DNA of 8,245 nucleotides from a bacterium (GTDB lineage: Bacteria; AUK180), in NCBI GenBank assembly GCA_030622125.1, contig JAUXGM010000095.1, positions 1-8,245 on the forward strand. The letters run 5' to 3'. Each line of letters opens with the position of its first letter. The stretch's first letter is position 1. The position numbers and the translations under genes were made by a program. Shown here piece after piece: positions 1 through 8,245 of the stretch. Below the pieces are notes generated by a model, which had not been told where the DNA came from, did not search any database, and saw only the letters and a program-made list of their open reading frames with translations.

Positions 1-1306
<1,306 letters not shown>

Positions 1307-1350: not shown

Positions 1351-2226
1351 TCATTCTTTTTCTTCGGGATTTTCAGAAGGTGGTTCTGCCTCAGGGTTTA
1401 TTTCTTCCTCTTTCTCTGTGTCCTCTGTGGTTATTTCTTCTGGTTTCTCTTCTATTTTCTCTTCTTCTGTTTTTCCTTCTTCACTAACCTCTAATTCACC
1501 CCGCACCAAATTGGTGCTGGGCATGCCTCCAACCTCTTCTTTTTCTGTTGTCTCTGTGGTTATGGATTCTTCCCGTTTTAAATCGGGATTCGAATAATCG
1601 GCAAGGTCCTCAGAATGACTGGAGGGAGTGTCCTCTGTGGTTATTTCTTCTGGTTTCTCTTCATTGTCAATTGTCAATTGTCCATTGTCAATTGTTTTCT
1701 CTTCCTCTGTTTTTCCTTCTTCACTAACCTCTAATTCACCCCGCACCAAATTGGTGCTGGGCATGCCTCCAACCTCTTCTTTCTCTGTTGTCTCTTCCGT
1801 TCCTTCTTCACTAACCTCTAACCTCGAACCTCTATCCTCTGTTTCTGGTTTCTTTGTTTCCGGTTCATATTTTCCGGTAAGCTCAATAATTGCAAGCTGT
1901 GCGGTATCACCTGGACGAATGCCGCTTCTTACGACCCTAACATATCCACCGTTTCTTGAATTCAAAAAATCTATGAAGTCCTCTTCAAATAATTTTTTAA
2001 ATGATTCTCTTGTTTTTAGGTATCTACCCGCCCTTTTTTTAGCATTAAGATCATTTTTTCTGACCTTTGAGAAAAAATTATCTGCAAATCTTTTTAATTC
2101 CTTTGCCTTTGCTATTGTTGTTTCAATTCTTCCTTGTGATATCAAGGAATCCAACAGATTCCGCATCAATGCTTTTCTGTGTGCAGAAGTTCTATTTAAT
2201 TTACTAATTTTTTTTCGATGCCTCAT
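1351..2226 (-). CDS. rplQ: 50S ribosomal protein bL17 with a long repetitive acidic C-terminal extension
   Basis: Residues 1-118 are a normal bL17, starting MRHRKKISKLNRTSAHRKAL and ending in AQLAIIELTG, a basic large-subunit protein located near the peptide exit tunnel (family knowledge). The usual length is about 115-140 residues; this frame runs to 291. Residues 119-291 are low complexity, about 31% Glu, with a net charge near -40, no predicted fold and no membrane segment. They contain a 28-30-residue block twice, 80 residues apart (KEEVGGMPSTNLVRGELEV and following residues, from 149 and 229), two EEKPEEITTEDT segments, TIDNGQLTIDN and SHSEDLADYSNPDLKREE. The DNA beneath is a mosaic of repeats listed separately. 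The start overlaps the rpoA stop by one base (TAATG), with GAGGTG upstream. It is the last gene of the alpha operon, as is usual. The core identity is certain; whether the tail is kept on the mature protein is unknown. Confidence 0.95.
   Translation of the reverse strand: MRHRKKISKLNRTSAHRKALMRNLLDSLISQGRIETTIAKAKELKRFADNFFSKVRKNDLNAKKRAGRYLKTRESFKKLFEEDFIDFLNSRNGGYVRVVRSGIRPGDTAQLAIIELTGKYEPETKKPETEDRGSRLEVSEEGTEETTEKEEVGGMPSTNLVRGELEVSEEGKTEEEKTIDNGQLTIDNEEKPEEITTEDTPSSHSEDLADYSNPDLKREESITTETTEKEEVGGMPSTNLVRGELEVSEEGKTEEEKIEEKPEEITTEDTEKEEEINPEAEPPSENPEEKE
1418..1452. repeat. 35-bp direct repeat in the bL17 tail, copy 1 (copy 2 at 1628-1662)
   Basis: The two copies are identical over 35 bp and lie 210 bp (70 codons) apart, so the frame is kept. 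On the coding strand the block encodes EEKPEEITTED. It carries ACCACAGAGGACAC, which resembles repeats I associate with intergenic DNA in many environmental genomes (from memory, not searched). A related unit, ACCACAGAGAACAC, occurs in the tail upstream of secY. Confidence 0.85.
1455..1555. repeat. 101-bp direct repeat in the bL17 tail, copy 1 (copy 2 at 1695-1795)
   Basis: This copy matches 1695-1795 at 99 of 101 positions, at an offset of 240 bp (80 codons). The two differences (1465/1705 and 1543/1783) are T/C transitions at third codon positions, and both leave Glu unchanged. Each copy contains an imperfect palindrome and the GGCATGCC self-complementary octamer. It encodes the EVGGMPSTNLVRGELEVSEE part of the tail. 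Confidence 0.93.
1499..1521. repeat. Imperfect palindrome inside the coding tail (second copy 1739-1761)
   Basis: GCACCAA and TTGGTGC flank a single central base. The arms extend past one C/T mismatch by three more C-G pairs (CCC/GGG). In RNA this would be a short GC-rich hairpin inside the rplQ message. It is duplicated with the 101-bp block. Confidence 0.75.
1564..1620. repeat. Palindromic TCATTCTGAG...GAAGAATCC element captured in the rplQ tail
   Basis: On the coding strand the element begins AGTCATTCTGAGGAC and ends GAAGAATCC. It holds a 5-bp stem (TCCCG 1571-1575 with CGGGA 1584-1588) and the octamer ATTCGAAT. The ends resemble a dispersed intergenic repeat of the TCATTCTGAGC...GAAGAATCT type that I recall from several bacterial groups. 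Here it is translated as SHSEDLADYSNPDLKREESI. It is a single copy in this window, so its repeat status is inferred from that resemblance. Confidence 0.5.
1628..1662. repeat. 35-bp direct repeat in the bL17 tail, copy 2
   Basis: Identical to 1418-1452. The copies diverge immediately beyond it: here the ATTGACA heptamer array follows, whereas copy 1 abuts the 101-bp block. Confidence 0.85.
1661..1698. repeat. ATTGACA heptamer array in the rplQ tail
   Basis: The minus strand reads ATTGACA, ATGGACA, ATTGACA, ATTGACA (1692-1665). A 38-bp segment differs by one base from 8121-8158 in the tail upstream of secY. Because 7 is 1 mod 3, the array translates with a 7-residue period (TIDNGQL, TIDN). The variant base at 1683 gives GGA where the perfect unit would give TGA. 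Confidence 0.85.
1695..1795. repeat. 101-bp direct repeat in the bL17 tail, copy 2
   Basis: Partner of 1455-1555, with 2 mismatches, both synonymous. It is bounded by the ATTGACA array on one side and by a different Glu/Thr-coding sequence on the other. Confidence 0.93.
1806..1847. repeat. AGAGGTT heptamer array in the rplQ tail
   Basis: The minus strand reads AGAGGAT, AGAGGTT, CGAGGTT, AGAGGTT, then AGTGAAG. The 44 bp at 1804-1847 match 7856-7899 in the tail upstream of secY with one mismatch (1835/7887). It is translated with a 7-residue period as EDRGSRLEVSEE. The variant C (plus-strand G at 1826) gives TCG where the perfect unit would give TAG. Confidence 0.85.
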
Positions 2227-7753: not shown

Positions 7754-8245
7754 TCACTCCTCTTGTCCTTTCTCTTCACTTTCTTTCGTTTTCTCTGGTT
7801 TTTCTTCCGTGGTTTTCTCTTCCGGTTTTTCTTCCGTGGTTTTCTCTTCCGGTTTTTCTTCACTAACCTCTAACCTCGAACCTCTAACCTCTGTTTCTGT
7901 TTTCTCTTCACTTGGTACCGGTTTTACTTCTTCTTTCTCTGTGTTCTCTGTGGTTACTTCTTCTGTTTTCTCTTCACTTTTCACTACCTGTCCAGCACTT
8001 TGGAAAGGTGCTGTGATTAACTCTTCACTATTCACTGTCTTTTTACTGCCTCTATCCTCTGTCTTTTCTTCACTTTTTTCCTTTTCACCAACCTTTTTTT
8101 TCCTCTTTATTTCTTGCTTTTCATTGTCAATTGTCAATTGTCCATTGTCCATTGTTTTATTGCCTCTAACCTCTGTTTCTGTTTTCTCTTCACTTGGTAC
8201 CGGTTTTACTTCTTCTTTCTCTGTGTTCTCTGTGGTTACTTCTTC
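7754..8245 (-). CDS. Repetitive Glu/Lys/Thr-rich C-terminal tail, probably of ribosomal protein uL15 (rplO); 5' end outside the window
   Basis: The frame is open for 163 codons from the window edge to the TGA at 7754-7756, so the 5' part is missing. The ATG at 8150-8152 is not a credible start: it lies inside a heptamer array, has no ribosome binding site, and replaces an Ile codon of the same repeat in rplQ. The protein is highly charged and low complexity, built of a 28-residue block present twice (EEVTTENTEKEEVKPVPSEE and following residues), EEKPEEKTT repeats, a basic patch (KRKKKVGEKEK) and TMDNGQLTIDN. No domain is visible. In the conserved operon order rplO precedes secY, and bL17 downstream carries a tail of the same kind, so a uL15 extension is the best guess. 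A separate accessory gene is possible. The last codons form the secY ribosome binding site. Confidence 0.5.
   Translation of the reverse strand, partial: EEVTTENTEKEEVKPVPSEEKTETEVRGNKTMDNGQLTIDNEKQEIKRKKKVGEKEKSEEKTEDRGSKKTVNSEELITAPFQSAGQVVKSEEKTEEVTTENTEKEEVKPVPSEEKTETEVRGSRLEVSEEKPEEKTTEEKPEEKTTEEKPEKTKESEEKGQEE
7757..7762 (-). promoter_or_regulatory. secY ribosome binding site inside the upstream tail
   Basis: GAGGAG encodes the final Glu-Glu of the upstream frame, directly before its TGA, and lies 7 bases from the secY ATG. Loading of secY is therefore tied to termination of the repetitive tail. Confidence 0.75.
7797..7861. repeat. 27-bp tandem repeat (about 2.4 copies) in the tail upstream of secY
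   Basis: Two identical 27-bp units (7797-7823 and 7824-7850) and 11 bases of a third encode the nonapeptide repeat EEKPEEKTT. The unit is a multiple of three, so expansion would not shift the frame. Confidence 0.9.
7856..7899. repeat. AGAGGTT heptamer array, second location
   Basis: Forty-four bases match 1804-1847 in rplQ with one mismatch. The coding strand reads AGAGGTT, AGAGGTT, CGAGGTT, AGAGGTT, AGTGAAG, translated EVRGSRLEVSEE. The CGAGGTT unit again sits in the phase where AGAGGTT would read TAG. Confidence 0.85.
7881..7963. repeat. 83-bp perfect direct repeat, copy 1 (copy 2 at 8163-8245)
   Basis: Identical over all 83 bases to the right edge of the window, at an offset of 282 bp (94 codons), so the frame is kept. 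Copy 2 may continue beyond the window. Confidence 0.93.
7993..8013. repeat. Palindrome inside the tail upstream of secY
   Basis: CAGCACTTT and AAGGTGCTG pair over nine positions (one G-T in RNA) around the three-base loop GGA. It is flanked by AGTGAAA/AGTGAAG and AGTGAAT/AGTGAAG heptamer pairs (7972-7985 and 8023-8036). The sequence is translated within ITAPFQSAGQVV, a non-charged break in the tail. Confidence 0.7.
8121..8158. repeat. ATTGACA heptamer array, second location
   Basis: Differs from 1661-1698 by a single base (8150). The coding strand reads ATGGACA, ATGGACA, ATTGACA, ATTGACA, translated TMDNGQLTIDN. The array occurs in two separate genes in the same reading phase. Confidence 0.85.
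8163..8245. repeat. 83-bp perfect direct repeat, copy 2, running off the window
   Basis: Identical to 7881-7963. The left boundary is the point where copy 1 continues into the full AGAGGTT array while this copy passes into the ATTGACA array. Confidence 0.93.

Follow-up and report, generated by a model that had tools for sequence, protein, structure and literature searches.

Among bacterial proteins, ribosomal proteins commonly count as some of the least tolerant. It is of interest to ask how the gene for one of them, bL17, comes to carry a long tail composed of repeats of the kind that normally lies between genes, and whether the repeats have made this tail or have only filled it. The window, i.e. 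the whole stretch of DNA that was analysed, is one whole contig of 8,245 bp (C110), taken from a metagenome-type assembly of 2.08 Mb with 192 contigs and a completeness of 96%.

The bL17 gene and its tail

In the rplQ product of 291 aa, the Pfam domain Ribosomal_L17 spans residues 20-116 (E 2.5e-24) and leaves about 173 residues as a tail, while the core shares 62-77% identity with bL17 of four members of the same family. This agrees with the initial annotation, which described a frame staying open for 173 codons after a complete bL17 core. The repeat units that it named as the material of the tail, namely the 101-bp and 35-bp copies, the ATTGACA and AGAGGTT heptamer arrays (below, arrays A and B), the TCATTCTGAG...GAAGAATCC element and the palindromes, are all located in the sequence (Table 1). 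In array B of bL17, TCG is present at the spot where TAG would be an in-frame stop. The TCATTCTGAG...GAAGAATCC element also has non-coding copies in the genome (matches to query 254-310). No matches are obtained by an Rfam scan of the window or by a plasmid search with the bL17 tail.

Table 1. Positions of the bL17 gene, the units of its tail and a second repeat-built tail in the window
Feature	Position	Strand	Description
rplQ (bL17)	1351..2226	minus	291 aa; conserved core, residues 1 to ~118, followed by the repeat-built acidic tail
bL17 tail coding region	1351..1872	minus	analysed for composition and genome-repeat coverage, and with AlphaFold2
Heptamer array B (AGAGGTT)	1811..1840	minus	read as EDRGSRLEV
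101-bp copy, first in gene order	1695..1795	minus	holds the palindrome composite read as EEVGGMPSTNLVRGELEVSEEGKTEEE
Palindrome element GGCATGCCCAGCACCAATTTGGTGCGGGG, copy 1	1741..1767	minus	
Heptamer array A (ATTGACA/ATGGACA)	1663..1695	minus	read as TIDNGQLTIDN
35-bp copy (family D1)	~1628..1662	minus	EEKPEEITTED; common to other gene tails
TCATTCTGAG...GAAGAATCC element	1564..1618	minus	near-palindrome CCCGATTTAAAACGGG internal; read as HSEDLADYSNPDLKREES
101-bp copy, second	1455..1555	minus	98% identical to the first, 240 bp away
Palindrome element, copy 2	1501..1527	minus	
35-bp copy (family D1), second	~1418..1452	minus	EEKPEEITTED
Gene upstream of secY, C-terminal 163 residues	7754..8245	minus	second repeat-built tail; core beyond the contig

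The frame in use has no internal stop and a net charge of -42 over 169 residues. The two remaining sense frames contain 10 and 15 stops with net charges of +42 and +52, and hydrophobic residues would make up 36-65% of the antisense readings. The tail is predicted to be disordered. It lies beyond a complete conserved core, is of low complexity, and is given by AlphaFold2 as all coil with pLDDT mostly 34-45 (5 sequences; mean pLDDT 45.8, low overall confidence), a prediction in line with disorder and no proof of it.

Copies of the elements between genes and in other proteins

Overall, BLASTN of the bL17 tail against its own genome finds 73 places besides the tail itself, of which 37 are non-coding, 35 lie in low-complexity segments of other genes and one is unclassified, the status of each being assigned by hand from mechanically called ORFs. 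Over the whole genome, the non-coding matches cover 342 of the 522 nt of the tail (66%) and the matches in other genes 411 nt, and together they account for 461 nt (88%). For about 119 of the 522 nt, all matches lie in the tails of other proteins and none in identified non-coding DNA, pointing to exchange between genes besides capture. When only sampled non-coding DNA of this genome is searched (about 37 kb), matches cover 82% of the tail, and the same test gives zero coverage for 20 dinucleotide shuffles, for the core of bL17, for rpoA and for the tails of bL17 in two relatives. With at most one mismatch, GAGGTTAGAGGTTAG occurs 150 times in the genome versus none for its reversed-pattern control. 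The repeat content of the bL17 tail is therefore far beyond chance. As to sampling, the first two batches of stretches were picked for repeat matches and are biased toward repeats, and the third batch (179 kb, taken by contig number regardless of tail matches) holds four non-coding and no genic copies.

The types of repeats in the genome are arrays of the 7-bp units ATTGACA (A), AGAGGTT (B) and AGTGAAN (C), often joined to short palindromes of about 15-20 nt. The initial annotation took the units for dispersed repeats that are normally intergenic, a view that would have failed if they occurred nowhere else in the genome; they do occur elsewhere, and the families are mostly non-coding. It also held that the tail comes from several unrelated repeat families. 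Several families are indeed present, but the AGAGGTT array is joined with the palindrome into a single composite element, seen in this form both between genes and in genes, and to that extent the families are not unrelated. The non-coding copies of array A (L095, L096, L058, L213 and others) stand in a fixed context of about 100 bp, AAAGAGGGACATTACCGAA...GACAAATACAAACTC...AAGCGGGAC, which suggests a longer dispersed element. The AAAGAGGGACATTACCGAA...GACAAATACAAACTC context of these copies is absent from genes, and genic copies of array A form a subtype with ATTGACA as the third unit, where most non-coding copies have ATGGACA.

Actually, bL17 is one of about a dozen affected proteins. The same elements are found in frame in bS1 (C50), bS16 (C49), uL30 (C147) and the gene directly upstream of secY. 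Further carriers are a TPR protein (C31), a SPOR-domain protein (C44), a roadblock-domain protein (C47), a SpoVG-domain lipoprotein (C170), three proteins without a Pfam domain (C58, C130 and C36), and a radical-SAM protein (C76) with the elements as an internal insert. Among them, at least four ribosomal proteins (bL17, bS1, bS16 and uL30) have long tails with much dispersed repeat DNA in one frame, and the uL30 tail is covered by non-coding DNA to a fraction of 0.80 with the self-match excluded. BLAST matches from tail to tail are all sense-sense, most tails have parts that match other tails only (up to 50% of some tails), and the tails share linkers that are absent between genes. In addition, the SPOR-domain and roadblock-domain proteins (L092:3-1121 and L091:8595-9908) have 184 nt in common at 92% identity within their low-complexity segments, reflecting either a recent exchange or a misassembly, the former gene sitting at a contig start.

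Within the core of the radical-SAM protein (L199:5906-7015) lie about 50 additional residues, among them TIDNEQWTMDN. The orthologs in G001-G005, from four members of the family and one of the class, are without these residues and align on both flanks, and 85% of the inserted segment is matched by non-coding DNA, 43% by non-coding DNA exclusively. This insert is the best evidence for a direct capture from intergenic DNA.

The tail at 7754-8245 is probably that of uL15, since uL15 lies directly upstream of secY in the family relatives. The contig end falls inside an 83-bp repeat (8163-8245) of this tail, and the uL30 contig (C147; L201 8430-8726) likewise ends within a repeat tail. A protein and Pfam search of the assembly does not find the uL15 core, which is present in all four family relatives; because the contigs with uL30 and secY both end in repeat tails, uL15 most likely lies in an unassembled gap flanked by repeats. 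This case is a warning that repeat tails break short-read assemblies. Many contigs end inside these repeats, so that the units of some tails may be arranged incorrectly.

Reading of the elements and comparison with relatives

In confidently identified genes, each repeat family is present in one orientation, one codon phase and one reading, with seven copies of array A, seven of array B, seven of the palindrome, two of palindrome-2 and two of CATTCTGAG, and array C is likewise uniform. The readings are T(I/M)DNGQLT(I/M)DN for A, (E/D)RGSRLEV for B, V(N/K)SE(Q/E)LIVNSEE for C and GMPSTNLVRGE for the palindrome, and antisense genic copies are confined to weak ORFs. The uniform reading may result from selection on the protein reading or from descent from few founders by tail-to-tail copying, and the two are entangled. 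As several of the genic copies share genic-only contexts and the array A subtype, the uniform phase may reflect descent and not selection; the copies are not independent of each other, which bears on the weight that the uniform phase can be given.

Pure stop avoidance is rejected as the cause of the frame of array A. In its non-coding copies, each of the three antisense frames is open in 16 of 16 copies, the used sense frame in 15 of 16, and the other sense frames in 7 and 4; antisense being more open than the used frame, the choice must have more behind it than openness. Some elements are no less open in the opposite orientation than in the used one.

The four genomes of the same family have bL17 tails of 57-147 aa, rich in E, K, P, A and V and without the repeats, and with the present genome included the tails range from 57 to 169 residues and from +9 to -42 in net charge. 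The tails of bS16, bS1 and uL30 are also extended in relatives, and uL15 is without a long tail there. When rplQ is compared across relatives, as the initial annotation proposed, tails are present with nothing alignable beyond composition, and the tail is repeat-built in this genome alone. The idea that the repeats made the tail is thus not supported by the four relatives: as they carry repeat-free bL17 tails, the repeats appear as a later fill of an existing disordered tail, and the tails already present in the family may have been where repetitive DNA could land.

All four family relatives have arrays B and C, and two class outgroups have neither. A tail-peptide search of long ORFs in two of the relatives (G001 and G004) finds no in-frame copies despite many B repeats, so that repeats together with a tail are not enough for capture. 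In a second genus of the same family (G002), the uL30 tail (L217) contains EIRGSRLEAS of array B and the bS1 tail (L268) contains VKSEELKVKSE and similar peptides of array C; for both arrays, sense and reading match those seen in this genome.

The gene order in the window is bL17-tgt-yajC, with the start of a YajC-like protein (1-156, minus strand, read by eye) directly after tgt and cut by the contig end. In the stretches of relatives examined, tgt was not found near bL17, so the 3' flank of bL17 is not confirmed by synteny.

Proposed origin and known repeat systems

With repeats both in genes and between genes, a uniform reading, tails pre-existing in relatives and one clean insert, we consider it probable that dispersed heptamer and palindrome elements were captured into permissive acidic tails, followed by in-frame recombination from tail to tail, with selection against stops and hydrophobic readings. 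The starting state would be a family with disordered, charged C-terminal tails on bL17, bS16, bS1 and uL30 and with dispersed short repeats. In this species, repeats would have become in-frame parts of such tails, as well as of at least one internal loop, and modules would then have passed from one tail to another through recombination or gene conversion with orientation and phase kept, recombination between similar purine-rich tails multiplying them in frame. Copies would be retained since nearly any soluble sequence is tolerated in the tails, and copies bringing stops or hydrophobic peptides (such as CQLSIVN, from array A read in reverse) would be purged or never captured. We infer that the direction was mostly from intergenic DNA to gene, with tail-to-tail transfer as the probable main multiplier of modules. 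The repeat tails are presumably translated, and copies in them may be nearly neutral.

It is possible, though we hold it only tentatively, that the acidic disordered tail is itself functional and that the repeats are convenient material chosen for charge or solubility. The long E/K-rich tails kept by relatives on bL17, bS16, bS1 and uL30 argue for this, as do the charges of the frames, the used one being strongly acidic and the other two sense frames basic, and the high hydrophobic share of the antisense frames. However, the wide variation of bL17 tails in length and charge argues against it, and the composition could be kept merely for harm avoidance. We know of no function for such ribosomal-protein tails. 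Similarly doubtful is a reading in which the heptamer elements are a shared, phase-locked parts kit for the disordered tails of ribosomal and other proteins, repeatedly captured and recombined in one reading since protein-level selection would keep the reading that is charged and free of stops; the in-frame copies in G002 would then be convergent.

An origin in coding DNA, where modules would have arisen in acidic tails and leaked out to give the non-coding copies, is improbable. The genic-only subtype of array A and the genic-only linkers would fit it, but relatives with no copies of arrays B and C in their bL17, bS16 and uL15 have these arrays in abundance, and the long fixed context of non-coding array A is missing from genes. 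There is also little likelihood that the elements serve as DNA or RNA sites (for recombination, mRNA structure or regulator binding) with an incidental protein reading. The 101-bp unit does fold better than shuffles as RNA (z -2.7, computed on the copy at 1455..1555, a short hairpin only), and heptamer arrays upstream of genes in Beggiatoaceae have been proposed as regulator sites (PMC4679880), yet a function of this kind predicts no fixed codon phase and the reading is uniform in every family. It is likewise improbable that a short-read assembly has joined repeat-bearing intergenic pieces to ribosomal genes: many of the 192 contigs, that of the window included, end in these repeats, but about a dozen genes keep an open frame and a uniform reading through them where a random join would usually meet stops, the radical-SAM insert is flanked by real protein on both sides within one contig, and in-frame copies are present in a second genus too.

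Under capture followed by recombination, the genome would offer a natural experiment on how non-coding repeats turn into protein, on whether disordered tails are neutral pads or are selected for charge, and on exchange between tails. In-frame insertion of repeats is already known, from RPE and from the heptamers of Beggiatoaceae, and what seems new here is a multi-family, phase-locked capture in ribosomal proteins. To the knowledge of the initial annotation, no such core ribosomal protein had been described; a search of the open literature for in-frame repeats in ribosomal proteins gave no precedent, while the ribosomal genes of Rickettsia may still hold one.

Rickettsia palindromic elements (RPE; Ogata et al. 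2000, 2002, covered by the reviews PMC2229807 and PMC3767692) lie between genes and in frame in unrelated conserved genes, where they are tolerated; the copies here are also both intergenic and in frame in unrelated protein genes. RPE is a single palindromic element of 105-146 bp, whereas here 7-bp arrays and palindromes of about 15-20 nt from several families are combined, mostly in disordered ribosomal-protein tails, in one reading and with linkers shared between tails. In addition, the hosts of RPE are Rickettsiales, and this genome is outside that group, in an uncultured lineage of a phylum with 7 genomes in the searched set.

The nearest known relative in kind is the TAACTGA heptamer repeat of Beggiatoaceae and Cyanobacteria (MacGregor 2015, PMC4679880), which is mostly intergenic, with some copies in ORFs near protein ends. 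The repeats here are likewise tandem 7-bp units, dispersed and mostly intergenic, but the units differ, being ATTGACA, AGAGGTT and AGTGAAN. The stop-free TAACTGA copies in ORFs use the reverse, always-open orientation (LSVISYQ), mostly in hypothetical proteins (PMC4679880), whereas array A is used here in the stop-prone orientation, with TGA avoided through ATGGACA units. The RU elements or MITEs of enterobacteria are also dispersed, with ORFs fused in frame to host genes (Delihas 2007, PMC2759123, PMC2229807), and resemble the present elements in being small and dispersed and in being read in fusion with host genes. MITEs are marked by terminal inverted repeats and target-site duplications, neither of which was noticed here, and one empty site is seen at the protein level, in the comparison of the radical-SAM insert with its orthologs. 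Finally, the low-complexity extensions of ribosomal proteins in the relatives, with long E/K/P/A-rich tails on bL17, bS16, bS1 and uL30, contain no or few dispersed repeats, whereas repeats make up most of the bL17 tail in this genome.
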